From Isoetes taiwanensis (lineage: Eukaryota > Streptophyta > Lycopodiopsida > Isoetales > Isoetaceae): a DNA stretch of 64,000 nt. The notes under the pieces were generated by a model. That model was given only the letters and a program-made list of their open reading frames with translations, was not told the DNA's origin and made no database searches. Made by a program: the position numbers and the translations under genes. The stretch spans positions 6,409,079-6,473,078 of the forward strand of contig JAJEKV010000036.1 in assembly GCA_021234155.1 (NCBI GenBank), given 5' to 3'. Below are positions 16,979 to 64,000 of the stretch, one piece after another; within the stretch, counting starts at the first letter, position 1, and the number at the start of each line of letters is the position of its first letter.

Positions 16979-19060
16979 GTTCAACTCATCCCTACAACCC
17001 ACTTTCTTGGACTTTGTCCCTTTTCCTTGGCTTCTCATTTCTAGCTTATATCTACCTTCAAAAGCATTTTCTGAGCGTGTTGCAAGCCAATGAATCTTGA
17101 GTTTAGTGACCAAGCCTTCCTCCTTGACTGTATCAAGTACTTTCGCTATGAAAGGTCGACCTTTGTCATCCTCCTCGGTTGGAAGAGCAATCAGCATACC
17201 TTTGGCAATTTCTGTGATATTACCTTGAGGCTCATTCCTGCGTCTTGGTCCGAGGTACATGACTCGATCCTCGTCTTCTTCTACTGCAGGTGATAATGTA
17301 GCATTGCTTGGACCTGCTTGGTGCTGGGGTTAATGGAAGGTGTTAGGCCATTGAAATGGTTCTTGCAATTGACTTAGAGCTATGTTTTGTACAATGATTT
17401 TCTGTTCGAGAAAGAAATTTTCCCATCACATCCGATCTTCTTCTAAGAAGTACTTAAAGCCTGAGAAAATTCTATTTTCAATGGCTTTTAAGGATGACAC
17501 TGGGGTACTTTTCTTCTGCTTGGACTCCTTAGGATTTTTGAGAGGAAGTTGCTCAGTACGTTCTATGAAGCAAGTGTCTGGAATATATTTAAGGAAGCGC
17601 AATCCTTCTGGTGGACTCCAGTCCTTAGTTGTGGTGTACTTCTTCCCTTGTAAGAAGCTTTGTCCATCTTTCAAGTAGAACTTGATGTGATGTTGAAAGG
17701 TGAGATCATTCAACTTGTTCACAGCTTGTTCTCTATTCGAACGTTGAGAGAAAACAAAGTCACTGAAATCAACAGTCTCTTTAAGAAGCTCAATCACTGG
17801 AATGGGAGTGTAAGAATCTTCAATAATTCGAACTAAAGTAGGAAGAGAAAAAACCTTCTTCCTTTTAAGGCACACAGAAAAACTGCTAAACATTTAGTCA
17901 ATCCGATCATGAGTGTGGCCTACAAGCAAGAATCCGAGCTTTACTTTCCTAAAGATCCCTAGCTCCACTAACATGGCACAGTAAGCAAAGAGTGTTTAAT
18001 TCTTGTTCTCCCTTGTAGTACTGTCAAGTTGCAAGTAGAGCACTGGTGGTAATTACTCTTGCTCGCACAGGACCTTGTTAAGAATTGTAATTGTGAGGTT
18101 CGGGTCACCATGCAAGTTTGGATACGTCAAAAATACTTTGCACTTTAGACTTCCTTTGAAGACCATAGCTCCTACAATGTGGACCTTAACAAAACATTTC
18201 TCTGGCACATCTTTAGGAATGTTCAAGAAATGGGGTAGAGTAGTTTTTTTTTGATCCATTCCATCAATTACAATAGACATATATTGCAGTGGACTTTCGA
18301 GAGTTTTTTTTCTGTGCTTAGCAAGCTTTCTTCTCTCTGCGGCTTGTTGTTCACGATGTCTGGCAAGGTTCTGTTGCACATTATCTGTTGAAGAATTCAG
18401 GTCAAAATATTTCTTTAATCAAGAGAAGAGAACTTAAGCTTACTTCTTTCGACCTATGTCTTCGCAGTTTCTTGTTGACTCTTTAATTCTGCACACCTTG
18501 AGCAAACAGACATTCTGTGTCTCCTGGGAATTTTCACAAGACCGAATTCACTTTTTCACAGTCTGGTAAAGCGTGAGTAAGAGATATGCTGAAACGGAGT
18601 GCAAGTCTCTTTGTATTCGTTAAAAACATCTTTTTTGGTGATGTTATCTGTCAAATGATACATATTGCTATTAGGCAACTTCTCACAAGTTTCTCTAAAA
18701 TATTTCTCCATCCATGACACAGCAGCAAGGGCATGCATGGTTAAAACTCTTCTTGGTCTATAATGATCATCAATTGCTGGGTTTTTGTCCAGTCTTTTGT
18801 GCTGGACATTCTGGTGGACCCTAAATGGTAGACAACCATAAAGCATTTCTGGCAAACTTCTTCACAGTTAACGTAGTACAAGAAGGTGTTGCGGTCTGGT
18901 CTTATATGATAAGCCAAGTAGGCATTCTGGTCTGCCAATGTCATTGAACTGTAGTTATCTCTAATTGCTCGAAATTTAGACATGTTAAATTTGTTGATGC
19001 AACCCAATGAGCAGCTTTTAGTTCTTAAAAGTCTCCTCATTTTGTGCTCTCAAACTAAAA
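16979..19060 (-). pseudogene. DDE-type transposase family with IDGMDQ / LQLD / GHTHD motifs
   Basis: Reading on the minus strand from 19,040, the N-terminus has a Cys-containing CSLGCINKFN block, then EVCQKCFMVVYHLG. A central part follows (18,855-18,556). A frame at 18,379-18,053 has SIVIDGMDQKKTTLPHF. Then come LYLQLDSTTRENKN and FLLVGHTHDRID (about 18,030-17,890), and a C-terminal region down to 17,260-16,979. The three Asp-bearing motifs are the likely catalytic core of a transposase-like family common in algae, early land plants and invertebrates. I think it may match Pfam DUF7869, but cannot confirm that. Several stops and frameshifts are present. The C-terminus is cut by the LINE 3' end. 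Confidence 0.65.
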
Positions 19061-20928: not shown

Positions 20929-23266
20929 ATGCCATTTGGGCAAGTGGTCATCGGTCCTCCTGGCTCTGGCAAAACCACCTATTGTAATGGCCTCCAACAA
21001 TTCCTGCAATTAATTGGGAGGTAGGATTCTTTGGAGTGCGAAATCATATATTTCTGCTTCCATAACTTCCAAACCTTGTAATCGCAGGAAGACTGCAGTT
21101 GTCAATCTAGACCCCGCCAATGATAGGCTGCCGTATCTTTGTATTCTTTTCTTTGTAATGTTAGGGTTTAAGACAAGTCTGTTGATTCCTTTACATTTTG
21201 AAGATATGAATGTGCTGTTAATATAGAAGAGTTAATTAAGTTGGAGGATGTGATGGAACAACAGGGGCTTGGCCCAAATGGAGGTAACTGTTTTGCAAAA
21301 TGTTTGTCTTAGTCCATGGAAGTGGCATCACTTCTCTTCTCCTTCCGATTGTAGGTTTGGTGTACTGCATGGATTATTTGGAAAAGAACATTGACTGGCT
21401 TCAAGCTAAACTGAGTCCTATTGCAAAAGGTAAAGAGAGGTAATGCTTGGAACTGTATCTGTGATTATGATGATTCAAACTGTCGTGACTTTGAATTTGC
21501 AGGTCGTGACATACATTTGATGCGGCATCTAACATTCATTAAATGCTGCAGATCATTATATTCTCTTTGACTTCCCAGGCCAGGTGGAGCTCTTTACATT
21601 GCATACCAATGCAAAGAATATAATTCATGAAATGGTTAACAAATGGGATTATCGGGTATGTCTTTATGTTCTATTTAAGGCCATGTTAAAGTTAAGGACG
21701 GGCACAGCAAGATACAAAGTTGAACTTCTTATTAGTATGAATATCTCTTAGTCCTTTCTAATTATGGACCAAAGTAGCTGGAACCAGAATAAGTCAGATC
21801 TCGGGCCATTATGTTCTTATTGATTTCCCAAAGAGATGCAATATGCAGTCAGTGTATAAGTATGGCTACGGCCAAACCTTAGCTATTATGTCCAAAATTC
21901 AAGACAAACTCGTTTTCAAGTATGGCCCACATTAAGCCAAAATAATTAACTCTTAGATCTGTCCAGAAAGCAATGTAGGTTCCTATTTTTGAACTATCCC
22001 ATCAATCTTAAAGGTCCCAAATCCAGTCGAGCAGACTAAAAATGTGAAGGGAAAGAAGAGAAGGTAAATAAGACATTCCTTTGGAAGATGAAGTCTCATG
22101 TGAAACTTCGTTGCACCTTTTAGTTCCTATTTTTAATGTTCCAGTTTGTGATTTGTTTTTTTTAGTCCCAGTGTCATTGTTAATTTTAAACTTCATTTCC
22201 TTAAGTTAATTTTTGTTCTGCAGTTGACAGCAGTACATCTGGTAGATGCACATCTTTGTAGTGATCCTGGAAAATATGTCTCAGCATTGCTTCTATCTCT
22301 GTCTTCGATGCTGCATCTTGAACTTCCACATGTGAATGTTCTATCCAAAATTGACCTGGTTGAAAGCTATGGCAAACTAGGTGATTCTTATTTCTTTACA
22401 TCTTTAAACTATCTTTATGGCATTGTTATGTGTTTGGGACAATGCCCTTATTGTTTTATGATTTTTTGTTCATGGAAGTACATTTTCTCCTATAGATGGC
22501 TAGTAATCTGGATATAGATATGATATAGAGCTAGGTCCGAGATTGGCAGGTTTTCATTTGTACTTCAATTGAAGAAATGGTATCTAACAACACTGTCTGC
22601 TTCCTTACCATATAAACTCTAGCTCCTATTTCATTGTGGTTGTCTTTGCAGCATACAACTTGGAGTTCTACACTGATGTACAGGATCTGTCATATTTACA
22701 ATACCATTTAGATCAAGACCCTCGTTCTGCAAAATACAGGCCAGTATACAAAGTTGCGAGCTAATATTTTCCTTATCTAGGCTTACATTTAATACTCTTG
22801 GATTCAGAAAGCTTACAAAGAGTTTATGCGAAGTGATTGAAGATTACTCACTAGTTAGCTTCACAACATTAAATATTCAGGTATTTTGGTTAAATAGGCT
22901 ATGTTTCTCACCAATAAGGCATAAGCTTATTTTTTAAGACAAATTGTGCAGGATAAAGAGAGCGTAATGGATCTAGTGAAAACAATCGACAAGAGCAATG
23001 GCTATGTGTTTTCTGGAATCGAAGGAAACATTGTTGAGTTTAGCAAAATTGCAGCAGCTCCACTAGATTGGGATTATTATAGATATCCTTCTTATATATT
23101 TGTTCTTGTAGGCCACGTGAAGCTATATAGTTTTGTCGCAGTTTGACATCATTCATTGTAAGGTTATTAAATAGTTGCATGCTTAACAAAGAAAGATACA
23201 AATGCAGAAGTGCAGGAAAAGTACATGGACAGCATGGATGATTTGAATGGTTCTGAAGATGTTTAA
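20929..23266 (+). CDS. GPN2: GPN-loop GTPase 2 (QQT1-like), ten exons
   Basis: Encodes a 303-residue protein when ten exons are joined: 20929-21020, 21088-21132, 21204-21283, 21355-21429, 21552-21655, 22224-22380, 22652-22739, 22808-22880, 22952-23082 and 23200-23266. It starts [20 protein letters not shown], giving the P-loop at residues 10-16. It continues with VVNLDPAND, the family-defining Gly-Pro-Asn loop (LGPNGG), DFPGQVELF (switch II), LSKIDL (base recognition) and the family C-terminal [17 protein letters not shown]. All junctions are in frame and no stop interrupts, so it looks intact. Human GPN2 is about 310 residues. GPN GTPases act with GPN1/GPN3 in assembly and nuclear import of RNA polymerase II in the cytoplasm. 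The Arabidopsis counterpart QQT1 is essential for early embryo division. Intron 7 is GC-AG and intron 9 is AT-AC. Confidence 0.95.
22740..22807 (+). other. GPN2 intron 7 with GC-AG ends
   Basis: Exon 7 ends AAATACAG and the next bases are GCCAGT, while the acceptor is GATTCAG. Only this junction keeps the frame (Lys-Tyr-Arg-Lys-Leu-Thr). The donor matches the tolerated GC class, supported by the strong CAG on the exon side. Confidence 0.85.
23083..23199 (+). other. GPN2 intron 9: U12-type AT-AC intron
   Basis: The donor is ATATCCTTCT, a perfect match to the U12-type 5' splice site ATATCCTT. The branch-site-like TGCTTAAC (23,180-23,187) lies 13 bases before the acceptor GATAC. Joining 23,082 to 23,200 gives an in-frame [13 protein letters not shown] junction that fits the conserved GPN2 C-terminus. 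No GT or AG alternative in the interval keeps the frame. Confidence 0.92.
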
Positions 23267-25060: not shown

Positions 25061-25288
25061 CTTCTTTACGTTTCTTATATGATTTCCCAGCCCACTTCAG
25101 TAGAATTCCTCGCCTTCACCAACTATCAAGATCAACTCTCATGTATGCAAATGGCATGTATGGGTCAGATATGAGGCATTAATTCTCTGGACCACGTGCA
25201 AAGATGTTCAGAAATCCCTGCAACACCTGAGTGAGATTTATAAAGAAGGGACATGTAAGTAACTCACTAGGCAGTTGGACTAATGCTA

Positions 25289-25560
25289 TTCGAGAATACA
25301 AAAACCTATTCTGGAATATTGTTTGGTGTGATGCATTTGCTGTGTGAGTGCATGAGTCCTATTCCAGAATACACTAGTCCAGACTGTCTGGACAAGACGT
25401 ATTCCGCTGTACATAGAAATAGATAACAAACAATAGCCTACCTTTAAAAAGGAAAATTGAGCACCTTAGTTGCGTATTCCGCTTTCAGAGATTTAGTCGC
25501 CAGCCTAAGCGCCTTCTTTTCTATTCAGAGTTGATGTATTCCGGTTTACATAGCGAAAAT
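25289..25560. repeat. Scattered ATTCCGGAAT-type palindromes, outer 5' group
   Basis: Variants of a GTATTCCGGAATAC palindrome occur at about 25,291 (ATTCGAGAAT), 25,309 (ATTCTGGAAT) and 25,361 (ATTCCAGAAT), with half sites at 25,401, 25,475 and 25,537. The same motif continues in the hairpin cluster and in the introns of the downstream gene. Confidence 0.7.
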
Positions 25561-25622
25561 TATGGACAGGTAAGCATGTAAAGTACATAGTACGTCTTTT
25601 GTCTCTGTTTTAGTTTACTTTT

Positions 25623-25912
25623 GTGGGCAAAGTGCATTCCGGAATGCACTTTGCCTTTCGTTGGAAGGGCAAACACTTTGGCCTTCTCATGTGAGCAAAG
25701 TGTATTCCGAAATACACTTTGCCTTTCGTTGGAAGGGCCTTTGGCCTTCTTGTGTGAGCAAAGTGTATTCAGGAATACACTTTGCCCTTCAGGCGAAAGG
25801 CAAAGTAAGGGCAAAGTGTCCGGAATACACTTTGCTCACATAAGAAGGGCAAAATGTATTCTGAAATACACTTTGCCCATCCAACAAAAGGCAATGTGTA
25901 TTCCGGAATATG
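25623..25912. repeat. Hairpin cluster: six palindromes of the GGCAAAGTG-TATTCCGGAATA-CACTTTGCC type
   Basis: Six related inverted repeats occur at spacings of about 40-70 bp, with centres near 25,641, 25,709, 25,772, 25,822, 25,863 and 25,905. Several extend to arms of 13-15 bases (GGCAAAGTGCATTCC / GGAATGCACTTTGCC). They are separated by CTTTCGTTGGAAGG-like spacers. The cluster ends about 220 bp before the first coding sequence of the ParB-methyltransferase gene, so it sits where a promoter or origin-like region would be. Confidence 0.9.
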
Positions 25913-27488
25913 TTTCTCGGATTTTTGGAAAATAATGTCCTTTTTTTGTTGTTTTTAGCCTACACAAATCACTTTTTAGCTAAATTAGAACACGAAAAAG
26001 CATGCTTGTGCAACTTTTTTCTGGCCGTTTTTTCTTCTTTTTGCTTGCATTTAATGCACAAATTAACAATTCTTATTCTGGAATATAGTTTTCGTTCCTT
26101 TTTTACTCGTGACAGCGTTGTTTTAAACGTTGCTCTGGCAGACAAGAAGGAAGCAAGAAGGCACCAAAGAAAGTGCTTAAGATTGTTCAACGGCCACATC
26201 CAATGAAGCAGACTAGGGACACAGATGTGCCTGCGATTTACGAAAATTTTCAAACACAGTGGTTCGTAACCAGAGGTGCAGGCGGCAAGTACAACACACT
26301 GACTTTTCTTCATGTTTGCAAAAGCCCTGGGAATAAACGCTATGCCGACTCTGAGTTTGTCAACCTTGGGACAATAAAAGATGTTTCTGAGGTTGCTGGT
26401 CAAGAGGTCAAGTGGGGAGGCTATCTTTCAAGACCTCCCAGGGCTACATTGTTGTCGATATTGCAAGCTTCAGAATCGTCAGTGTGCAACCACAGGAACT
26501 GTACAAGTATTTCCCATCACCGGAACAACAAAGCCTAGCTTCCATTATTAGACAGGTTTGTTCCAGTCAGAGCGAGGACTTTCTTGTTAGTGAGTCCAAG
26601 CATGAGGAAGCAGCTGAAGAATCTCCTTCTGCTAGTACTTCTGGGCGGAAAAGGACGGAAGCTCAGAAGAAGAAATAGAGGAGCAGCCCAAGAAACTTAG
26701 CAGGCCAAGAGACACCGTAACTGCTAAGGAACCAAAGAATAGGAAAGTACAGCAGCTTGAAGTAGTAGAGATCCCCAAGGAAAGCACAAAAAAGAGAAAA
26801 GGAAAAGGTAAGGCACCTGGGGTTACAATAAAGGAAAAGAATCTTGATAAGACCTCTGAAAGAATGGAGGTAATAAACAGAGAAAAATTTGTACAAAAGG
26901 GGTGATCTATCTTCCTAAGAATGAAGCTGGTGAACGGCCACTTCAGGTTCGAAAAATCTATGCCGGTCACTTGAGGAACCTGAAGGACAGAATAAGGAGC
27001 AATCTGAATGCTCATGTGGCCCCAATCGTTGTCCTTGTTGACAGGGAGCAGTGCACAACCCCCCAAGACTATGACAGGAAAAATGCAGACACCTACACAC
27101 ACTATGTCTTGGGAGGTAATCACAGCTTCAAAGCAAGAAGGCAACTATATAAAGAGAAGAAGAACCCAAGGTACCTCTCCGTCCTGTGTGCTGTTTACTA
27201 TGGTCTTACTGATGAAGAAGCAAAAATCGTTGCCAACACCCACAATGCTGACAATGAGTACAAATTAAAGATGAGCTTCGTCGACAAGATCAGGTTTATG
27301 CACAGGGAATACGTTATTTTCAAGGAAAAATACGGCGAGGACCTAAATAAGCCAGCGTATAGCTTAAGGAGGCATGCGCCATTGAATGCTGCCTGAAATA
27401 TGACGAAGCCAACAAAAGGCAGTCACTCATTGGCCATGACAACTGGTTCCAATTGGCTTTTAGAGATGGCAAGGTACACACATAACGT

Positions 27489-27498
27489 ATTCCGGAAT
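27489..27498. repeat. ATTCCGGAAT palindrome in intron 1 of the ParB-methyltransferase gene
   Basis: Perfect ATTCCGGAAT, 15 bases inside intron 1 (27,474-27,582). Confidence 0.85.
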
Positions 27499-27880
27499 AA
27501 CAAGTCCTACTAATGTTTTGCTTAGATTTGTTTGTGTCTAGATTTACTTGTCCACTAGGTGACTTAACATTTTCTTGAACAGATATGGGAACTCCAGGCC
27601 GAAATATTTACAATGTTCGAACGCAGGGAGTTGAAGAGCAAGGGAAAGGAGACAACAAAGAAGAAAACCTCAGACGTGCCTAAAAAAGAAATGACTATTA
27701 CCGTCTGGAGGGAATTGCAGAGCTTCTCCGACATAAAACTACTAGAGCGGCTGCTCCAAAAAGTTGTTGACAGGGAGTTCAGCCTCGAAGAAATGTCAAA
27801 GAAATTGCACAAGTAAGTTCTCTGATACAAGCTTTGCTCTTTGGCTGTTGTTGTCCTAGTAGCATCGGTGTAGACTGTGT

Positions 27881-28032
27881 ATTCCAGAATATACAAGCCT
27901 TCTAGTAAACGAGCAATGTGTATTCTAGAATACACTTTGGTGTGTTCGAGCAGAAAAAGCTTTTAAACCTTAGAATTTTTGTCTTAGAACAGACACTCAT
28001 TTACTAGACAAATAAAAACAGTATTCCGGAAT
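27881..28032. repeat. Three ATTCCGGAAT-type palindromes in intron 2
   Basis: ATTCCAGAAT (27,881), ATTCTAGAAT (27,922, inside the 18-base palindrome GTGTATTCTAGAATACAC) and ATTCCGGAAT (28,023) lie in intron 2 (27,813-28,167). Confidence 0.85.
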
Positions 28033-28869
28033 ACAAAATGATTTCACAGTAGCAGCATATTTCATTTCAAGATAGCAAATACAAATTGCTTTACTTCGAA
28101 TTGTTTTCCTTCAGTCTTGTTTTGTTTCACTTACTTCCTAACGCAGTGTTTCCTTTCTGTCTTGCAGCCAGAAAAACGTCATAACATGTCAAACATGTTT
28201 GATGGAGCAGCTAAACGTTGAAACTTAGGAAAGATGCAAGGAGCTCTACCCTGTAGCCACCTCCGACGAGCGCATTCTACAATACGCACCAAATTTTGAG
28301 GGCTGGGTAAGTAATCTCGATTCCTTTCCTCTTCACCAGCGATGTGTTAACAGTTGTAGTTTTGTTTTTTCATACAGAGCAAGAAAAAGAACAAAGACCT
28401 TCCCAAGGGCTTCATGCACTTGGTTAGAACTGCACGGGAAGAGAGGTCATTAGCTGAAAGAAGGATTGTTCATGCAGGACCATCCGACTATGAAAGATTT
28501 TGCATGTTTGATCAAAACAACCTATTTTCGATCATTCATGGCGATTGCACGAACCTAGTCGGAACAGTAAAGCCGCAAAACTTTACTTTGGTTCTTGCAG
28601 ACCTTCCTTATGGGTTTAAGCTTAAAGATAGCTGATACGATGACCAGCCCTTCAAATTTCCCGAGTTCAACGCGTTCATTGATGGCATCAAGAGATCACA
28701 ACGGCTAAACATTGGCATCTAGTTGTGTTCCATTCTAGTATGCAGGCAGGCTTGGTAGAACCAGCTTTTAAAAACCACTTCAGTTCTCCAATTCGAGGCG
28801 GGGATATGAAAACACAGTGCGGTAAGTCTTATTCGAATCTGATTACTAACCTCTTCAATTACGTCTCGT

Positions 28870-28879
28870 ATTCCGAAAT
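28870..28879. repeat. ATTCCGAAAT site in intron 4
   Basis: One-mismatch copy of the palindrome in intron 4 (28,822-28,950). The 71-bp intron 3 has none, and no copy was seen in an exon. Confidence 0.75.
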
Positions 28880-29609
28880 AGGATTACTTTGTTTCTAGTT
28901 TTCGAACTGTTTTCTTGTTTTTTCTAACATCACTTCTAATATTTCACTAGGTACAAAATGAACATCAATTATCATGGTGCAGGACCAAGGTTACTCAGCA
29001 AGGTGGAGTACCTTCATGTTGCTTACTGGAGTTTTGATGGGAAGAGAACCATGGAGCACTTCAAACACTTGCTTTGTCAAAAATTTTCAAACGTCCTAGA
29101 GTTTCCAATGGTCTTACGAAGTTGGGGACCCAAATGCACAAGGCAGGATTGTAAATCACTATGTAAATGCACAAGCTCATCAAACATCTCTTGGACATGT
29201 TTTTGCGTCCAGGAGATTGGGTGCTTGATTCTTTTTCTGGTTCTGGCACTACCATTGCATGTGCACTTAAGAAGGACCACAACCGTAGCCGTGGATATTG
29301 ATAAGGAGGTCAAATTTTGTGAGGATGAGGCCCGGGTGCCTTACCTACTTTACCAGATGAAAATCAAGAGTTAGGGGCCAAGTCTTCATCTGATTATGCT
29401 AAGTGACGTCCTCAGAGATACAGTCTCCTTTCTTGAGCTCACTAGATGACGAGGCCACCTTTGCAAAGCTTAAAGAAGTAGCTTTAGCTACCATTCCAAA
29501 GGACAAGGCAGAAGCAAAAGGTAAGTCTCCAGCAAAGGAACAGACGGCAGAGAAAGAAAGTGCTGAGACCAGCAAAAAAAATGATGAGGACTATGATGTA
29601 GATCTTTGA

Positions 29610-30453: not shown

Positions 30454-32862
30454 TTACAGAATAGTTTTACATTTCATCCTCATCAGAAAGAACTCGGGTA
30501 ATTTCTGTAAGATTTTCTCTTCATCTAAAGGATTCTGCCTATATACAGTCCTGTTTTGACGTTTAGTTGATGTCATATGAAGTCTGATTGCACAGATATG
30601 TGTTGTGAATACTATGCCCTTAGCGTCTTTACTGCAAAGATCGTAGCTGCTGGTTGATCTTACGCCCTTCTTGTAATACATACCTTCTACGACACTATCA
30701 CCGGTGAGTTACCATGCTCCATTGAGTTGGAAGTCTTTATCCACTATCCATTTTGGTTTTGTGCATATCAGAATCCAAAATTCAGCACCCTCATCATTCC
30801 CTTTCGGAGCAACGACAGCAAAATTATCACCAACTCTAAGTGCCGCTGCTAACATCGTGGGATTGGAGGAGGACAAGGACTTGTTGGATTTACGGTCCTC
30901 CTCAATGTCAGCATGCACATTGGAGGATGGTACAATAACTTGAAGTTTTCAGTTATCAACATAGTCCTTGTTCACACAACTGTCCCACATGCCATCCAAG
31001 CAATAGCTGCAGAAGCATGAAAGTTCCCTCGTATGCAACTGCAATGGAGACCCAAGATTGAATGCATGTACAAAATCCTTTCTGCACATCATGTTTTCTT
31101 TCTATCTATATCCTCCACCTTGACTTTCCAAAAGAAGTCCTTTTGCTGGTTTCAGATGTGTTCATCCACTCGGATGTTCCATAAGTAAACATCTCTTCAG
31201 CAACTTCTACTACTTCATGAGCATTACCCAATTTTATGCTGTTGTATTTTAATTACAGTTGTCTTAACCATCTCTTCAACTCAGCAACCTTGCCATCATG
31301 TCACCTTTCCTGTGGTTAGAACAAAAAAAATTCATCATATAGACTTCAGTGTCGTTTGTATACCTAGCCACAAGGTAAAATGGTCTAGAAGCCTTGAATT
31401 GAGATGCTGCACCATCTGAAAATACATAATGTCTCTTTGGCACCCTTCCTTTCTGCTCCAGATATTTGTGGTGCTTCATGAAGCAGTGTTGCACGAACAA
31501 AGTATCGTGTTCCCTATCATCTGATACATCGTAATGTGTTTCCTTGATAATCTCATCTGCCACTGAGTCATACTGATATGTTATTTGAACCAAAATGGTA
31601 ATCTGGTTATTGACCCAGTGCATCGACTGCATCTCCTCTTGTTTCTTGAATGTATAGTTCTCTGCAAAATCCACTACCGAAAGACATGCATCTGTTGGGA
31701 TATTCTCCAAAAGCTCCTTAAATTGTTTTGCCTGCCATTGGTACCTGAAATTATACAGTGGAAAGATTTTTAGATGCTCTTTCAGTTTATCTAGAAGCTC
31801 CTTGGGTTCTGTCTCATTGTATTGATGAGTCAATCTCTTACCAGAACTCAAGACGTTGTCTTTTTCATAGTCAATGTACTCCCATTTCACTTTCCTGTTA
31901 CTGCCACTTTCTTCCATGGGACATGTCTGAAACTTCTTGATTCCACACAGCTCACAATCTCCAAGGATGCATGCCTTCTTATGAAACTCATCTAATTCAC
32001 TCTTTGGACACAATATAGATCTCCACAGGCTTCCTGTACTTGCATTAGAGGAAATTTGAGATCTCATTTCATCCCCATAAGAATCCTCCAATGGAATGGC
32101 TTACCCTCTATTAACTGCAATTAATACAGCACCAACAACTTCATTGCTGTTGTTTTCCCCCCATAACTTTTGATCCACTTGTCAAAATGTTGCGGCGTTT
32201 GTTGCATTAGATGCGGAATGAAAAGATCTTTCCAATGATATATGGTTATGATGTATTTCAACATGGTCATATGCGTTAACCTTAAAAAAATATGATTTTT
32301 TGCTTATTTCTTATATATTTATATCGTAAAAGATGTATGAAGGGTTATCACTAGATAGATCTTGTGAAGACGAACACATTGCTACAAAAAGTTTTTGAAT
32401 CGGAGTTCTGGATCAAAAGTTATAATGAAAAAATGATACTACAGAAGTTAGTTGCATCTGCATTAATTACAGGCTGCCACATGATACTGAAATGAGATAT
32501 ACTGGAGCTCTTCTCTTATTGGACAGTTTAAAAAGCTGACATAGCATTTTAAGCATCCCTTAATGGGACAAAATGTGATCTCATTTTTCCTCTAATGCAA
32601 TTTTATATTGGTATGCCCTGCATTGACCAAGTTCATGTGATCTACATATATCACAGGTGCAAGTGCAATTCTTCGGATGTTTGGATCTCATCCCATTATG
32701 TCCATCCACTAGCATGTGCATCCTCACATGCCGAATACGACAGCAACTATTGAGGTCCTTCAATTTCACAACAGACCAAGGTTTTAGCTTCTCAAAAGCT
32801 CGAAGACGAATCTTAATTTGTGGATATTGGTCATTGAACCACTTGAACAATAGCATCTGCAT
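30454..32862 (-). pseudogene. DFAENY/SDG-motif transposase family, minus-strand copy
   Basis: The N-terminal part (32,862-32,581) has an AFEKLKPWSVVKLKDLNSCC segment and a CTCTCDICRSHELGQC Cys cluster. A 271-residue open frame (32,091-31,276) carries CELCGIKKFQTCP, SVVDFAENYTFKKQEEMQSMHW, a DDREHDTLFVQ block, YVFSDGAASQFK and FFCSNHRKGD. A C-terminal piece (30,918-30,709) has VGDNFAVVAPKGN. The two Asp motifs (DFAENY and FSDG) are the likely catalytic positions of a DDE-type transposase. The family is widespread in invertebrates and early plants as uncharacterised proteins. It is homologous, block for block, to the plus-strand copy at 34-37 kb. Gaps between frames may be introns or damage, and no termini were found for this copy. 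Confidence 0.65.
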
Positions 32863-32884
32863 GAAATGAACAATGAACTGTTAG

Positions 32885-33914: not shown

Positions 33915-36900
33915 ATGAAGGTGAGGCCAATAGTCAATTCGGACCAACAGACAATTGGAATCTTGTTTTTGGTGAAAGTACTAGAAATTGTGAAGAGGAT
34001 TTTCGATTGAACACTCAGTCTCATGTTTGTGATGCTACCACTGATGCAGAGCCACCAAAGACATCCAATTTTGAAACAAACTGTGATGGTTTTGAAGCAT
34101 TTTGTGATCTACCTACAAATTCTGGTAAGTGCTTGAAAACTACTTTTAAATGTTAAACAGTCTTGAAATACTAGTTTGCTAATTGTTTTAAAGGTGGTGT
34201 TGAGGTCCAGCATGAACATGGGTTTGAAGATCAGGAATCACTCTATAGAAAATTGCATGCAATGAAAAGGAGAGAACAAAGAGCAAAGAAAAGAGCAAGA
34301 GAAGCAGACTTACAGAAAGATGTCTCCAGCAGTGGACTAAGCAAGAGAAGAAAACAACAAATTTCAAAAAAAATTGCATTGTATAATAATAAGGTATGTG
34401 CAAATGCTTCACAACAAGACGGGGAAGACATTCTTGAAGGTCTTTGCTAAAAAGGCGCCGAGAATACCAGGTATTGAAATTGAAAGAAGTGAAAACAATG
34501 TCAACAATAGTGGAAAATTTGAGAAAATCTTTGGCTCAACATAAGTATGATAGGAAAACTGATGTGGTCAGAGCTCGAACCTCAGAATGGTTTATCTTTG
34601 TTGCCTCAGAGAAAACCAACTGTAGAAGGCTATCTGAATGTTTGAATTTGAACAGAAAATATGTTACAGCAGCAGTACATAGAAGAGCAGCAGCAGAAAT
34701 TGGTGAAGGTCCCTGGTCAATATTTAAGAGACAAACCAGATCTGACAAACTCACTAATCAACAGCAAAAGCTTGTGGTTGAGTTCTGGACCAATAATTCA
34801 AGAGTGTCTCCATGCAAGAAGCATGTGATTAAAATTAGGATTGCCAAAGGCAATAAAATATTGCATCCTCTACATTTTTTGGAAGAGACTGAGGTTGGTT
34901 TATCTAATTTCCCTTTCTTTTCTTTTTTTTTTTTAAATTTACCATGCCTACAATGCTTATGGTTTTAATGCAGGTTTCATTTTATGAAAGATTTCGAAGA
35001 GAGTTTCCAAAATTCGAGGTGTCTTTCTCAGCTTTTCATGCACTGAAACCTAGCTTTGTAAGGAAAGTAAAGGACAGGGAGACATGCAAGCAATTAACAA
35101 AATGAGGTTGGACACAAAGATTCATGGAAGTGAATGTAATTGTACATGTGCTGTTTGTGGTCCTGGCCTTAAATGTGAAGCCAACTTGAAGACATACAAG
35201 TCATCAAGTGACATGTGGAGGTCATTGGTTTGTGTCAAAGATATAGCAGATGAGTGGTATCAACATAATTGCATGCTATTGAAATGCAATTCTTGTGGTC
35301 CTTCAAATTGCCTATGTGTCCAAAGGAGTTGAATAGAGGTGCTGGTCACACGGTTGATTGGAAGACATTTGATAGAGTAAACCCTTGTTGCATTATCTAC
35401 TTTAATCTGTTTGTTGTATTGGAGATCTTTCATACTCATTACTAAAAAGAGTTTTATGTAAAATTACAGGTTTTTGAAGCATCTTGAACTGATGGGCTGG
35501 AGCTTTGAAAGTAGTACCAAAACCAATAGTTAAGCTCGTTTACAAGACAAGTGAAAATCTTGCTGATATTTTGGAGTATGCTAAGAATGTATTGATTGAT
35601 TTTATTCCTCACAATTATGAAGCGGATGGCAAAGGCTAAGCAGTTTAGGGATTGCTTAGCCACTTTTCCAAAAGACACGGTTGTATCGGTAATAGACTTT
35701 CTTTGAGAATTACACATTCAAAATCTGACAAAGAGATCCAAAGTTTGCATTGGAGGAATGATCAATGCACAATCTTGGTGCACATCACATACGGGCATGC
35801 AAGCTGCTGCAGAGGTTCAAGAAAATTGTCTAAGTAAGTGTGAGAGGAACATCATCAAAGAGACACACTTTTATGTCTCGGATGATGAGAGAACATGATA
35901 CTCTCTTTGTTCAACATTGTCTTAATAAAGCATGCTAAGTTTCTAGGCGAGAAAGGTGTGGATTACACCAACCATGTGATGTGGTCCGATGGTTGCTCAC
36001 ATCAATTCAAGGGTGCAAGATTTTTTTTCTTCATTGGTAGATTTTTAAGACCTCACGGTATTCCAATTAAGCTGGAATTACTTTGCCTCTTACCATGGAA
36101 AAGGTATGCCAAAGATCTGCAGATTTACTTCAATTGTATGTCTCCAAAGTAAGCTTCTCTTTTTGTTTGTAGGTGAACATGATGGGGAAGGGGGGCGGTG
36201 ATTAAAAGAGCACTCACACATGAAATGTTAAAGAGGAATTCTAGACCCTTAAGAGATGCTCATGATGTTGTCATATTTTTGCGGGAACACTTGATAATTC
36301 GACAAGCACTGGGTAAATATTGTGTTCATAGTTATATTTGTAAGCACCATTTATGAACTCATTTATTTGGTGCAGATTCTTTTTGGAAAATAGGCAAAGA
36401 AGATGTGTGCGGGGATGAATTGTTTGAGTGTGCTACTTTGGTAGGATCTAGCAAATTCCATAGCATTAGACCGGTCAACAACAAGGACCCTACTATGGTT
36501 GCACACATGAATTATTCACCTTACGCCACCACTTTGTTGGTGCGCTAAGTACAACAAGTGTATTAATAAAGAAAGAATAGGATCATGGGTTTTTTCAGAA
36601 TTAAGGCCGGGGAATAGAGGAGGAAATAGAAGCTTGTGATGGGCGGTGTATGAAGGTGATCTTTGAAAGTGGAAGTCCGATATCATAGACATTGGAGAGA
36701 ATTTTTTCTTTGTTGTTGGCTCCAGTGGAGACAATAAGGAGAAAGTTGATTTTACATTCTCAAATGTACCCGGACAAAGCATGTTGTTGAGAAAGCTTTC
36801 AAGGATCCACAGGGGACGAAGTTTGGTAGGAGAGAAGTTGTAATGTTGGTAAGTTTTATAAGTTTGTAGGTGATAATAAGTATGAACTTCTAAGACATGA

Positions 36901-41470: not shown

Positions 41471-41766
41471 GTTTTTTTTTTTTTTTTTTTTTATAAATCA
41501 TAACAATTGATCCAAAAGCTTTGTTTTGAGTGAAATTTGTTGCATTGGAAAACTCTCTTATAGATCTACGCCATGATATATGATTGAATAAAGTTTGGTT
41601 AAATTATCTGGTTGAAAAGCTTAACGTTTTGGCTGGCTTTAGTTATGGTTTATTCAGTGTAACCTCCATTTGAAAACCTCTCAGGATTACTTACCTAGTA
41701 ATTAATCTTTTGGTATTATAAACACTATGGATAAATGTAGATTCTATAAAAAGATAATAATTATGA

Positions 41767-41945
41767 TCCCATCGATCCGAGACATCGGATCGCCATTCTA
41801 GAATGGGACGAGCATGCATGTTTTGCATGCATCGCGGGGCTTTATGCGGATTACGGTTGGGGAGTTCGCTATTTTAGGCGCGTTTACGCCCGACTTCTCA
41901 TCGGCGCTTCCTCTTCTCTCTCGCCGAGTACCTTATTCTCTTTGA
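41767..41945 (+). repeat. Direct repeat A inside CACTA, copy 1
   Basis: About 180 bp starting CCCATCGATCCGAGACATCGG, repeated nearly identically at 42,131-42,308 (offset 364). It includes the palindromes ATCGATCCGAGACATCGGAT and CCATTCTAGAATGG. Confidence 0.85.
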
Positions 41946-42092: not shown

Positions 42093-42308
42093 AGGCGGTT
42101 TGTTGGTTTCATGCGAGTCCCATTCTAGAATCCCATCGATCCGAGACATCGGATCGCCATTCTAGAAATGGGACGAGCATGCATGTTTTGCATGCATCGG
42201 GGGCGCATGCGGATTACGGTTGGGAGTTCGCTATTTTAGGCTGCGTTTACGCCCGACTTCTCATCGGTAGCTTCCTCTTCTCTCTCTCGATTACCTTATT
42301 CTCTTTGA
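42093..42308 (+). repeat. Direct repeats B and A inside CACTA
   Basis: Repeat B (42,093-42,130, GGCGGTTTGTTGGTTTCATG) is followed at once by copy 2 of repeat A. B recurs at 42,756-42,793 without A. The arrangement A ... B-A ... B suggests a secondary insertion or segmental duplication within the CACTA element. Confidence 0.75.
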
Positions 42309-54689: not shown

Positions 54690-55235
54690 TTCTCGGACTC
54701 TGAGCTTTGAAATTGCCCTTTTTTACTACGAGTCTGCCTTTTAGGACTCGCGAGTGAAAGGCCCTCAAACTTGCATTTTTTAAACTTTAAAGTCGCCTTT
54801 CTCAACTTCATGAAGTCGAAAGGCCTTCTGACCCCCCTAAAATCCGTGTTTACGGCTTTTGGCGGCTTTCGACTCGCGAGTCGAGAAAGGCCTTCGACAC
54901 CTAAAACCTGCGTTCGGCTTTGAGCGCCTTTCGATTTCTTGAGTTGAGAAAGGCCTTCTGATCCCTAAAACTGCGTTTTAAGCTTTTCGCCTTTTCGACT
55001 TCAGTCGAGAAAGGCCTTCCGACCTAAAAAACTGTTTTTTTTAGCTTTGAGCTGCCTTTCTCATTTCATGAGTCGAAAAGGCCTCTCCGAACCCTAAAAC
55101 TGTGTTTTAAGCTTTGGTGCCCTTTTCGACTTCGCTTGAGTCGAGAAAGGCCTTTCCACCCTAAAAACCTGCGTTTTTGGCTTTGGTACGCCTTTCTCGA
55201 CTCGCTGAAGTCGAGAAAGGCTCTCGTGACCTGTA
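54690..55235. repeat. 66-bp minisatellite, each unit with a hairpin
   Basis: About eight units of 61-70 bp. AAGGCC marks recur near 54,757, 54,820, 54,887, 54,950, 55,011, 55,078, 55,148 and 55,218. Each unit contains CCTTTCTCGACT...AGTCGAGAAAGG, an inverted repeat, followed by CCTAAAACTGCGTTTTAAGCTTTG. Units differ by substitutions, so the array is not recent. Confidence 0.88.
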
Positions 55236-58811: not shown

Positions 58812-59901
58812 ATTCCTAGGATGGGTCCTATGAGACAGACAAGTTGGCCAAGTGAAGTGGTGTTCTCATTGAGCTTTGTAAAACATTGAGTACAAATGGA
58901 TCCCTCACTAGGGATAGATAAATTTGAAATATGAACTTTAAATGCTCCGAAACTAGACAATCATCGAGAGCATGATGAAACTGAAGAAAAAGATAGTTTT
59001 ATCCGCCACTTGGTCGATGCAAAGGTGAGAAGACTCGATGACTGCTCCTCATCGGGAAGAAGAACCACGCCTTCCTAGGTTTTGAGGAAACCCAAGGAAA
59101 TAGTTGAAGCACGACCCCACGCACTATGGCAACCACAAGACCTTAAACAATCCTGAGAATCAAGGCTGAAAGAAAAAATAAGATCAATGAGTTAGATGCC
59201 ATAGGCAAGAAGACTCGGAGGCTCCAGGGCCACGCCGAGAAAGAAACAACGGTAGGCCAATCGGGAACCATCCGCGGAATGACCATCGCGGGAAAAAACA
59301 ACCGATTAGTGCTGCCTCGGAGGCTACTGGGCCACGTAGAGAAAAAAACAATAAATATGATCTCGAGGCAAGCCACTTGTAGAGAAAACGTGAATAATAA
59401 ATATTGACTCAGAGGTTACAATGCCACACAGAGGCTATAATGCCACACCGAGAGAAAACATGAATAAATAAAATACTCGAAGGTTACAGTGCCCCCCCAA
59501 GAAAGAATAATAAGTAAGCCGGGAGGCTAGGCTAGCCAATAAAAAAAAGAAATGAAACATAAACACATCTACACTTACAAAGAATATAGAAAAGACACAT
59601 GTAGGATGTCAGAAGCTGCGAGCGACCCAGAAAATATAGAAAAATAGATAGAAAATAAAGATGACCAACCGACCAAAATCAACCAAGAGGGAGGTTGGGG
59701 GAAACTTGAGGAGCCAAAGAAGAGAGAACAGGAAAGGGAGCTCAAGAGAACGCCGATGACTAGAAATGAGACAAGAGGTGAATAAATAGAGAGACGTGAA
59801 GGAGAACGCCCCATCCAAGGAATGTCGGTTCTATTCTTTACGTCACAATAGAACCGCGGGCATTCCTAGGATGGGTCCTATGAAACAGAACAAGTTGGCC
59901 G
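58812..59901 (+). repeat. Pair of 39-bp direct repeats about 1.05 kb apart
   Basis: ATTCCTAGGATGGGTCCTAT...AACAAGTTGGCC-like sequence occurs at 58,812-58,850 and 59,862-59,901. The interval holds AGGCTAC/GCCACGC-rich repeats near 59,215-59,510. It could be the ends of a small retroelement, but no termini were established. Confidence 0.55.
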
Positions 59902-60224
59902 ATAGAAGAGGAATCTATCTCAAAAAAGGGCTAGACAAAAGAAGATAACTAGGGAAAGGGCGAGCAACCAAAATGGGGAAAGCGCGAAAGAAAGATGACC
60001 GTAATAGAACAGTAACGGGAAACAAAAAGGCTAGGCAAAGCGAATCGAGAACAAAGGCTATGATAAAAGAGGCACTAAGAAGGCAAAAGGACTATGGCGA
60101 GCCATAAGGTGAGGCTTAACAAACAAAGGAGTCCAGGATGCCAAGACGTTTCAAGAAGGACCAAGACGTTTTTGAAAGGATAAGTGAAAGAAGGAAAATT
60201 ACGAGTAAAGGGCCAAAAGACGAA

Positions 60225-61620
60225 CCAAACGTAAGGATAAAATAATGAGAAGATAAAGGGATTGTGAACAAAGGCGGAGTACATAAGGACAACGACATAG
60301 TGAATGTCACATAAAGCAAGGTCGCATAACACAAATATCTAACGAGGGGCAACCACAAGAAACACCGAGGAAAAGCGAGAATAGGCCCTCAAGACCTTTA
60401 TGAGAACAAACCTGAAAAATTACGGAAGAAGCATGCATAGATCTATCAAGAAGGACCAAGGCGCTGAGTAAAGGACCAAAAAGGCAGAACCAAACATAAG
60501 GATAAAATAATGGGAAGATAAAGGGATCGTGAACAAAGGGCGAGTACATAAGGACAACATAGTGAATGTCACATAATGCAGTCACATAACACAAATATCT
60601 AACGTAAGGGCAGCCACAAGAAACACTGAGGAAAAAGCGAGAATAGGCCCTCGAAGACCTTCATGAGAACAAACTGAAAAATTACGGGAAGCAGCATGCA
60701 TAGATCTAGTGAATATATACAATAGCACCATAACCAAAAACATGATTCGCATAATCATAACACTAGAACATACGAACAAAAAGAGCATCAAACCTACCAA
60801 TCATGATGTTGGAAACAAGAGCCCTAGAATATGAAATACTAGTGAAGTAATCTCGAAACACCAGAAAAAGCTAAAGCAGATATAAAACATGCAACCACAG
60901 AATACTAGAGGATAACGCTTTTCAAAGGAAAGGAAAAACTCAAAATGATATGAACTCAAGAAAGAACATCCATGTCCCAAACAACCCATGTAAAAAGAGA
61001 TACTAATAATGTAAAAACAACAAAAGAAACGATTTATGTAAAAACAGACAAACGAGCCAGAAGAACCTAAGGAATAAAGGATGAGACTCTTAGAATAGCG
61101 AAAAGGTGTCATGAGATAAACCTCCATAACATAACAAAAAATCAACATGCACTAGTAAACCATAGTGACAATTGTAAACCGCAACATATAAAAGAAATTC
61201 GAGGAGATAACAATCTATTACTAAAATACCAGTAAAACCATGGAAAGTTGTTAAGTGACAAACGACAACTAGAACAAAAGAAGCACGTGACGCTTAGAGG
61301 CAAATGTGGAAGCATGTAATGGCAATACATGAATGAGATAAACCCGAAAAGCAAAGGTCAAAAAGAGAAATAAGAGAACTATGACAATGGCAAAAAGGGG
61401 TCTGCGAGGCAATAGGGCACAAATAACTAATAGGATTGAAAAAACACAACGCATGTGGGAGAGTAAGAAGAACAATATTATCAAGGTGACAAAAAGGGGC
61501 AACATGGAGCAATAAAACAGAAAGAGTAACGGAAGTTGAGGAATCCAACGAAGAAACATGAATAAAGGAAGACAAGAGACAATGGGGCTAAACATGCTCC
61601 TACCAGGCCAAACACCTTAA
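60225..61620 (+). repeat. 1.73-kb direct duplication, copy 1, with an internal 270-bp repeat
   Basis: Blocks such as ACTAGAGGATAAC (60,904), CATAGTGACAATTG (61,160) and GACAACATAGTGAATGTCAC (60,552) recur in the same order about 1,725-1,729 bp further on. Within it, 60,225-60,395 and 60,495-60,680 are themselves direct repeats (GATAAAGGGAT...GAATAGGCCCTC). The plus strand is strongly purine-rich. Confidence 0.8.
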
Positions 61621-62215
61621 ACATAAAAAAAGTTTAAACAATCGAGAGCAATGATTGTGAAATCATGATGTTACGAGGAAAATAGAATGAGCTTAAAACT
61701 CAAAGAAACAAATCAATGTGCGCAAAAACGAACAATATCGAAAATACGAATCAACACACATAAGATACTTAAAGAAAGATAATTGTGCCAATATACACAA
61801 ATAAACTAGATGTCGAACTACATAATTGAGAAGTCATGCTAATATGCTTGCAAGAGTCGACTATGAGATCAAAGAGAGTATGTGGCAAAGAAATCGACTA
61901 TGACATCAAAGAGAATATGCTCGCAGAGAAACTAAGAAATAACCGATTTAAAACCCATTGTAAACACACATGCGAGAAGTGGATATGGGATCAAAGAAAG
62001 CATGCTTGCAAACAAACGACTAAAAGGCCAAAAACCCCGAGAAATAAGACCTTTGTGGATACGCGACAACAATGCTCCTAGATGATCCGGTATGGAAACC
62101 AAAGACGCCTTCAAGAGGGTAAGTGAGAGAGAAAAAGGAGGAACAAGGAGTGTGGATCAAGAGATAAGGATCAACATGCAATACAAGGAGACAAACAAGA
62201 TAAATGGTGAAATAG

Positions 62216-63300
62216 AATAGAATAGAAAAGAACAAGAAAATAAAGGGATCGTGAACAGAGAACATAGTACATAGGGACAACATAGTTAAAGTCACATAAT
62301 GTAAGGACGTATAATGCCACGCCAAACAAGCCCACAAAGGCAACCATGAGAGAAACCCGAGGAAAGAGCAAGAACACCCCTCAAAGACCTCCATGAGCAA
62401 GAGCCGAGAAGCTATAGAAAGGAGCATGCACCGATCTAGCGGTAGAAAGTACATACGACCAACACCATAACCGAAAAAACAATTTGCCTGCATTAACACT
62501 AGAACACACAGGAAAAATAGCATATACCCTACCACATTAACGTTGGAAACAAGAGCCATAATATACCGGAGAAAGTATTCACAAGGGACCAGAAAAAACC
62601 CGAAAGGAGACATCGAGCAAGCATCCACGGAGTACTAGAGGATAACACATTCCAAGGGAAAGGAAACACTCATGACGATATGAAAAAGAAAGAACATTCA
62701 TGTCCAAAACGACCCTTAGAAAGATACTAATAATGCAAAAACAATAGAAGAGACGATTTCACGTAACCAACAAATTAGCTAGGCGAGCCTAAATGGAAAA
62801 AGAAGGAGGCGACTCTCGGAAACAATGAAATGACGCTACGGGCAAAACCCCCATTGCATGACAAAAAGGTCAATATGCGTTAGTAAACCATAGCGACAAT
62901 TGCACACTGGAACATAACAAAGAAATCAAGAGATAGCATTCTATAGAACGAAAACATGCTTGGGTAAAACCATAGAAAGTTGTTAAGTAAGTTCATCTAT
63001 TGGAATTCATGAGAAAAACCATGAAATAGAGCATACTATAGGACGTGCACAATAATTCATGACAAGAGTGAGAACCAAGATAGCATATAAGGTAGACAAG
63101 ATGCAGAGGATGACTCGAACAAAAGGAGCACGTGATGCTTAGAGACAAATGTGGAAGATAAACACGAAAAAGCATAAAAATAGAAGATATCCAAATGAAA
63201 CAAGCGAAGGGGATATAATTGAGATACATGGAAGGAAATGTAAAGCAAAAAGAAACTCGATCCATAGGAGCAAACGAGGTTAAAAGAGCAAGATGACCAT
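62216..63300 (+). repeat. 1.73-kb direct duplication, copy 2
   Basis: Matches 60.5-61.6 kb in order at a near-constant offset (for example ACTAGAGGATAAC at 62,633 and TTAGTAAACCATAGCGACAA at 62,880). Identity is roughly three quarters by eye, so the duplication is old. Confidence 0.75.
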
Positions 63301-64000
63301 AGGAGTGGTTTGGAAAAACTGTGGTAACCAGTAATAAATTAGAATATGAGATAACCATAGGGGCTAAGAAATTATATGTATAAGGGCTAAGAAATTATAT
63401 GTAAACACGTAGAAATAAGAAACCCGTGGAGAACCCCTGAAACCAAAACAAACAAGAATAAAAGGCCGAGCAACTGGACACTAACAAGGCGGAAAGGACA
63501 ACGAGGAGTCAAAAAGATGAGATGAACAAATGAAGGAGAGATGACAATCGAAAAAACTAAGACAAGTGAGACAAAAAGAGGTAAGGAAAAATGCGAGACT
63601 AAAAAAACAAACAAGAAAGAAAAACGTAATGCTTTGGACGACATATAGTTTTGGGATCACAGAAGAGAGGAGGAAAGCATAAAAAATGCAAGACATCAGA
63701 CAACAACATGGGATAGCGAGAGAAAGAAACCGATAAGCGGCCGAGAATAGAAGACCCCACCTATCATGCCAAAAAGACTAGGCGGGAACCACATTATATA
63801 AAGGGAACTACATGGGCATATGCAAAACTAGACCATGCTAACCAAAACCAAGGAAATTTGAAATACCGAATAGTTGGGATGCCACGACCCGTTATCCCCC
63901 TTCCCTAAGCAAAAGAACGCAGAGGTCGCGGAGCTCGCCGCCAGGCAAACATGGGCAGGAAAAAATTGATTGCCGACCGCTTTCCGACCAAACCAAATAA
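63301..64000. other. Purine-rich repeat field continuing to the window end
   Basis: No gene recognised. A 26-bp tandem duplication (AAGGGCTAAGAAATTATATGTA-like) lies near 63,361-63,407. Hydrophobic antisense frames throughout 59.5-63.7 kb follow from the purine-rich plus strand. Confidence 0.5.

Follow-up and report, generated by a model that had tools for sequence, protein, structure and literature searches.

A palindrome cluster along the 5' flank and putative introns of a broken ParB-like/methyltransferase gene of Isoetes taiwanensis

Genes that join a ParB-like domain to a DNA methyltransferase have been described in mobile DNA. The Ectocarpus Sola1 transposon Sola1-1_Ec32 carries a ParB-like plus N4/N6-methyltransferase gene on the strand opposite its transposase, accessory genes of this kind also occur in green and red algal transposons, and a printed conjecture holds that these proteins could bind their own transposon and modify it (PMC12477816). 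A ParB-CTPase fold fused to an N6_N4 methyltransferase (PF01555) is enriched in phages (PMC12704722). The bdelloid N4CMT is a bacterial-type N6_N4 methyltransferase in a eukaryote, with a chromodomain and an SPPY motif, that acts at transposons (PMC8885841), and the virus-borne elements Mariner-2_PGv and Mariner-1_OLpv encode a DNA methyltransferase of unknown role (PMC3627910). Here we describe a 64,000-nucleotide stretch of Isoetes taiwanensis (assembly GCA_021234155.1, contig JAJEKV010000036.1, positions 6,409,079 to 6,473,078; hereafter the window, whose own coordinates are used below) containing a broken gene with a ParB-like part and an N6/N4-methyltransferase part, around and within which about 15 palindromes are clustered. 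Our leading explanation, offered tentatively, is that these palindromes are duplex sites for a symmetric dimer, and that their likeliest reader is the ParB-like/methyltransferase product of the gene itself, borne on a mobile element.

The locus resembles Sola1-1_Ec32 in its putative two-domain make-up and its eukaryotic setting, and possibly in the opposite-strand, convergent layout, but it has a palindrome cluster in its upstream region and inferred introns. The string 'palindrom' does not occur in the main text of PMC12477816, which was the sole pertinent paper among the matches listed in our literature searches; none of those matches, judged by titles and abstract openings and with subscription journals little covered, dealt with such sites. 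The accessory gene and the self-recognition conjecture are already published, and the site array was not met in these searches. Unlike the phage fusions, the Isoetes gene is eukaryotic and has inferred introns, and phage records held no match to its ParB-like part. It differs from N4CMT as described in carrying an ADLPYGF motif and a ParB-like part and in looking element-borne. The methyltransferases of the two Mariner elements belong to other families, with no ParB-like part mentioned in the accessible text.

Motifs were counted on both strands of the full window. With at most one mismatch, ATTCCGGAAT occurs 13 times (four perfect) against an expectation of 2.32 (standard deviation 1.37), a count reached in 0 of 100 shuffles; 11 of the 13 lie within 25,308-28,879, and the remaining two are at 11,746 and 56,164. 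Leaving the centre free gives a cleaner motif, TATTCNNGAATA, with ten exact copies in the region 25,280-28,890 (spanning 25,287-28,033) and none elsewhere in the window, which agrees with the claim of a first-pass annotation of this DNA that the motif is rare outside the region. Allowing one mismatch yields 13 matches in the region and 3 in the rest of the window, and allowing two yields 17 and 32, so that the enrichment is one of near-perfect copies. The half-site GTATTCCG/CGGAATAC, on either strand, is found ten times in the window, always inside the region, and at 25,399, 25,474 and 25,536 it has no intact second half. The inventory comprises 15 full or nearly full sites and three half-sites, making the earlier estimate of 'about 16' palindromes a fair one, and the site consensus is (G)TATTCNNGAATA(C).

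Chance does not account for this cluster. When only non-coding segments were subjected to dinucleotide shuffling, the ten observed TATTCNNGAATA sites compared with a mean of 0.0025 and a maximum of 1 in 2,000 shuffles; the same test minus 25,618-25,912, a repeat array described below, left eight exact sites against a mean of 0.0005 and a maximum of 1. We also scanned all 1,024 ten-base palindromes at up to one mismatch and scored the 13 that had at least four copies in 3.6 kb, among which ATTCCGGAAT was the most clustered (Poisson probability ~1.6e-18) and AAAGGCCTTT the runner-up (~1e-9). Given the shuffle tests and the absence of exact TATTCNNGAATA outside the region, a chance origin was rejected. 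The AAAGGCCTTT-type palindromes, the second most clustered in the window, have 6 of their 10 matches in a tandem array at 54776-55225. Palindromes of CCATTCTAGAATGG type at 41795, 42122 and 42784, two of the three imperfect or cut short, resemble the TATTCNNGAATA-type motif but differ from it, and lie within another repeat (41766-41945 / 42130-42308, 93%).

The gene is built in eukaryotic fashion, with five inferred introns that all run GT...AG. Spliced in frame to the first long exon, ATGGACAG at 25,562 would give a protein beginning MDRQEGSKKAPKK... across the inferred junction. The features of the gene and its convergent neighbour are as follows.

25287..25371, no strand: three exact TATTCNNGAATA palindromes (25287, 25307, 25360), from the motif count, 5' of the inferred start codon
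25399..25544, plus strand: three GTATTCCG half-sites lacking an intact second half (25399, 25474, 25536)
25562..25569, plus strand: inferred coding exon 1, ATGGACAG, 8 bases, in frame with the exon at 26142
25570..26141, plus strand: inferred intron 1, GTAAGC...CAG, 572 bp, with seven sites (one degenerate)
26142..27473, plus strand: exon 2, an N-terminal part of unknown family and the ParB-like domain (open reading frame 26860-27393), frameshifted
27474..27582, plus strand: inferred intron 2, 109 bp; single site at 27488, perfect
27583..27812, plus strand: exon 3
27813..28167, plus strand: inferred intron 3, 355 bp; exact sites at 27880, 27921 and 28022
28168..28306, plus strand: exon 4
28307..28377, plus strand: inferred intron 4, 71 bp; free of sites
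28378..28821, plus strand: exon 5, methyltransferase N-terminal part with the DPPY-like ADLPYGF motif, an in-frame stop and a frameshift
28822..28950, plus strand: inferred intron 5, 129 bp; single site at 28869, one mismatch
28951..29608, plus strand: exon 6, methyltransferase C-terminal part with the DSFSGSGTT motif, frameshifted
30457..32880, minus strand: convergent coding remnant; a related remnant lies at 35,165-36,044 (plus strand)

All ten exact TATTCNNGAATA sites fall in the upstream flank or the inferred introns and none in the exons, bearing out the confinement that the first-pass annotation had proposed. The exons make up 2,804 of 4,321 bp, and the chance that ten of ten sites would avoid them is ~3e-5 (calculated with intron borders one base off the final ones). 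Exons are also free of one-mismatch ATTCCGGAAT matches, and a lone two-mismatch match in exon 4 (28,273) is at chance level, given 32 matches with up to two mismatches outside the region. A site is present in every inferred intron longer than 100 bp (572, 109, 355 and 129 bp); the annotation had said as much of three such introns, having missed the 572-bp intron 1, and a hairpin cluster of six sites that it had placed upstream of the gene does exist (25,618-25,912) but lies in this same inferred intron. The gene copy is broken by several frameshifts and in-frame stops, so present-day constraint on the sites cannot be claimed, and the site array reflects an earlier active element.

Such a distribution might also suggest that another protein (a host transcription factor, or a transposase or accessory binder of the element) bound the sites, which would then have driven the methyltransferase gene as its promoter and as enhancers in its introns. 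Immediately 5' of the inferred start codon there are three exact sites and three half-sites, and intron 1 adds seven; first introns are a common location for enhancers, and a short, free-centred palindrome would fit dimeric factors of many kinds. However, introns 2, 3 and 5 have sites too, as far as 3.3 kb into the gene, and on the evidence of this copy the palindrome is not an element-wide transposase site, as neither the convergent remnant nor any other part of the window holds an exact site. We consider this explanation unlikely, if a genuine contender. Because the sites keep to one gene, that gene's own product is the most economical reader.

A 44-residue C-terminal piece (29167-29298) matches the methyltransferase family PF01555 with an E-value of 5.6e-9, and the joined part with 2.6e-10. 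Read directly, the motif order is catalytic-type ADLPYGF (28597-28617; DLPY for DPPY at the (D/S)PPY position, in this broken copy) and then DSFSGSGTT, the FxGxG-type S-adenosylmethionine-binding motif of PF01555. The C-terminal piece also matched DNA methyltransferases in PHROGs (best E 2.2e-7) and methyltransferases among solved structures searched by sequence (E 0.017 at best). Among phage records, 17 of 50,697 matched the methyltransferase part, weakly and all below 60% identity; the methyltransferase exon found no relative in viral contigs, where GTGTATTCCGGAATACAC likewise had 0 matches. The ParB-like open reading frame matches the ParB model TIGR03764 at E 6e-4 and 19.5 bits, far under the cut-off of 143.75, and DUF6551 at a sub-threshold E of 0.0044. 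Its PHROGs match is to a family of unknown function (E 0.002), its structure model was too poor to be used (pLDDT 39.8), solved structures searched by sequence gave nothing sensible for it, and 10 pattern matches in viral contigs and 191 in genome contigs included no relative. No Pfam ParB family matched the gene pieces scanned. That both domains belonged to one eukaryotic gene fits their order and the inferred splicing; the ParB part is weak, and frameshifts and stops lie between the two.

The first-pass annotation had likened the locus to ParB-parS, and the likeness stands as far as a ParB-like domain and several clustered, short palindromic sites near its gene are concerned. It falters on the sub-threshold ParB match and on the lack, in the gene pieces scanned, of a helix-turn-helix, with which canonical ParB recognises parS. 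Moreover, no ParA model was matched among the 37 Pfam-scanned pieces (some overlapping, with much of the window outside those scans), the Isoetes ParB-like part is joined to a methyltransferase, and the TATTCNNGAATA core differs from the parS sequence.

A second alternative, that the palindromes are a small self-spreading repeat, such as a short palindromic insertion or the remnant of a foldback miniature inverted-repeat transposable element (MITE), which piled up in introns and flanking DNA, exons being intolerant of it, and had no protein reader, draws on the structure of intron 1. In the stretch 25618-25912, units of ~63 bp are repeated in tandem and in inverted orientation and carry the palindrome inside longer flanks such as GCAAAGTGTATTC..GAATACACTTTGC; the potential of this array to form RNA hairpins is strong (-165.9 kcal/mol, z -14.9; inverted arms up to 44 nt). 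Sites 25899 and 27921 also have the longer flanks GCAATGTGTATTC in common. Against such spreading, the eight other sites, neither in the array nor flanked like it, are alike in little beyond the core (mean pairwise flank identity 35%, compared with 26% for random pairs; maximum 57%), and the remaining 60 kb, which should carry copies, has none of the ten exact sites. We regard a spreading repeat as rather unlikely.

The strong folding of the intron-1 array would also suit sites that act in RNA, as intronic hairpins aiding splicing or as double-stranded RNA for silencing. We folded six stretches as single-stranded DNA and compared each with shuffles. The intron-3 site pair can pair mutually (z -3.78), but the single sites in introns 2, 3 (28022) and 5 have no hairpin tendency (z +0.61, -0.25 and +0.46), and the sites upstream of the gene precede its inferred coding part, which makes action in RNA improbable. 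A hairpin in RNA or a cruciform as the common function was rejected, because these three isolated sites fold no better than shuffles while the array and the intron-3 pair do. For the same reason the likely ligand at these isolated sites is duplex DNA and not a folded strand.

The sequence TTCNNGAA amounts to two heat-shock pentamers, and heat elements are known in transposon promoters (PMC5059998). The palindromes could on that basis be heat-shock elements conferring a heat response on a transposon, as in the retrotransposon ONSEN/COPIA78. By the account in the same source, nTTCnnGAAn alone is a non-functional proto-element and at least three nearby nGAAn units are needed (PMC5059998). An adjacent in-register third pentamer is absent at all 15 sites (gapped arrangements lay outside the scan), and on this ground we rejected the heat-shock element. 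The Isoetes core is also longer than in ONSEN-type elements: TTCNNGAA extends to ATTC..GAAT in 11 of 12 cases in the region against 4 of 33 outside, and to TATTC..GAATA in 10 of 12 against 0 of 33. Heat-shock factors do not need these extra bases. A heat-response role, largely refuted already, is therefore very improbable.

The reading of the palindromes as binding sites for a dimer is suggested by their dyad, the lone half-sites, the variable two-base centre, the near-unrelated flanks and the lack of hairpin tendency at three isolated sites. The first-pass annotation had envisaged a self-recognising ParB-type element; the dyad, variable centre, mostly unrelated flanks and non-coding confinement do fit a dimer site, whereas binding by the gene's own product is what we infer from the placement. 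A symmetric dimer would bind the palindrome with one half-site per subunit. In loading on its gene, the protein might use its ParB-like part, its N-terminal part or a recognition domain of the methyltransferase. Once loaded, it could regulate its own promoter, or methylate the DNA of the element to mark or protect that copy. Intronic placement would be expected if coding sequence cannot easily hold sites.

The centre of the palindrome had been taken as a fixed CG, and CCGG sites had been named as places to look for methylation. The centre is not fixed: the central dinucleotide is CG at 7 of the 15 sites, TG at three, CA at two, and GA, AG and TA at one each. The variable pair fits a spacer between half-sites, and since these two bases vary most, methylation of CCGG is unlikely. 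The adenine in GAATA would be a better guess.

Several observations weigh against dimer sites read by the gene's own protein. The matches behind the ParB label are weak and sub-threshold, and the gene pieces scanned contain no helix-turn-helix Pfam family, although a decayed copy could hide one. The one copy seen is a pseudogene, and the viral- and genome-contig searches returned no paralogue or relative. Independence is lacking for six of the 15 sites, which belong to a single array, and for a seventh (27921) whose flanks resemble those of the array. The other three of the six folded stretches do pair somewhat or strongly (z -5.94, -3.78 and -1.91). Flank identity at the eight remaining sites is slightly over random, with one flank column standing out, and the constancy of the core is partly built in, since sites were picked by core match; region counts of 10, 3 and 4 at zero, one and two mismatches mitigate this bias but do not remove it. 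Part of the variation at the centre (TG, CA and TA, 6 of 15 sites) is CpG decay; the GA and AG changes at 2 of 15 are not accounted for by such decay. Finally, the ends of the element were not found in the scanned ranges, so that it is transposon-borne is something we infer.

The ParB-like/methyltransferase gene was probably carried by a transposon. The minus-strand remnant and its relative at 35165-36044 are members of one family and run in opposite directions (best tblastn E 3.6e-13). Judging from this repetition and from known systems, both may be transposases, the minus-strand remnant possibly that of the same element; perhaps the two remnants represent two different elements of one superfamily. 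Scanned pieces of the two matched no transposase family, and the minus-strand remnant had no relative in viral contigs. A search for terminal inverted repeats between 20.0-25.7 kb on the left and 32.6-38.0 kb on the right gave 292 weak pairs, none convincing, including one weak end pair with a 4-base flanking repeat (25,020/34,522, 5 of 20 mismatches). Within the minus-strand remnant, inverted arms of 42 nt at 32040-32081 and 32559-32600 (83% complementarity across a 477-nt gap; a further pair is nested) look like a MITE-like insertion.

Elsewhere in the window are copia-like integrase pieces (rve, E 4.9e-10) and reverse transcriptase pieces (E 5.2e-12). A match to PF03029, a conserved ATP-binding protein, at 22152-22514 on the plus strand (E 7.2e-12) may mark a host gene to the left of the element, and two DUF7869 pieces lie at 17429-18418 on the minus strand (E 3.5e-7 and 1.9e-5, the second below cut-off). 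CpG is depleted and TpG in excess (CpG observed/expected 0.45-0.62 over 1-40 kb, 0.62-0.89 over 40-64 kb), as in a genome with 5-methylcytosine. The last part, 59001-64000, has a strong A-over-T skew (0.45-0.50) and a diverged repeat (60514-61256 versus 62236-62988, 72%). The window contains no Rfam match at gathering thresholds and no tRNA.

A wider proposal is that a eukaryotic transposon here carries a self-addressing pair, a ParB-like methyltransferase together with an array of its recognition sites in its own upstream region and introns, for loading and marking in cis. This we think somewhat unlikely as things stand. If true, the pair would give a nuclear genome an address system of the parS kind. 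If the gene's own protein reads the sites, the published self-marking conjecture would become directly testable with a defined sequence of 12-14 bp, and the locus would exemplify introns as a home for recognition sites that stay clear of coding sequence.

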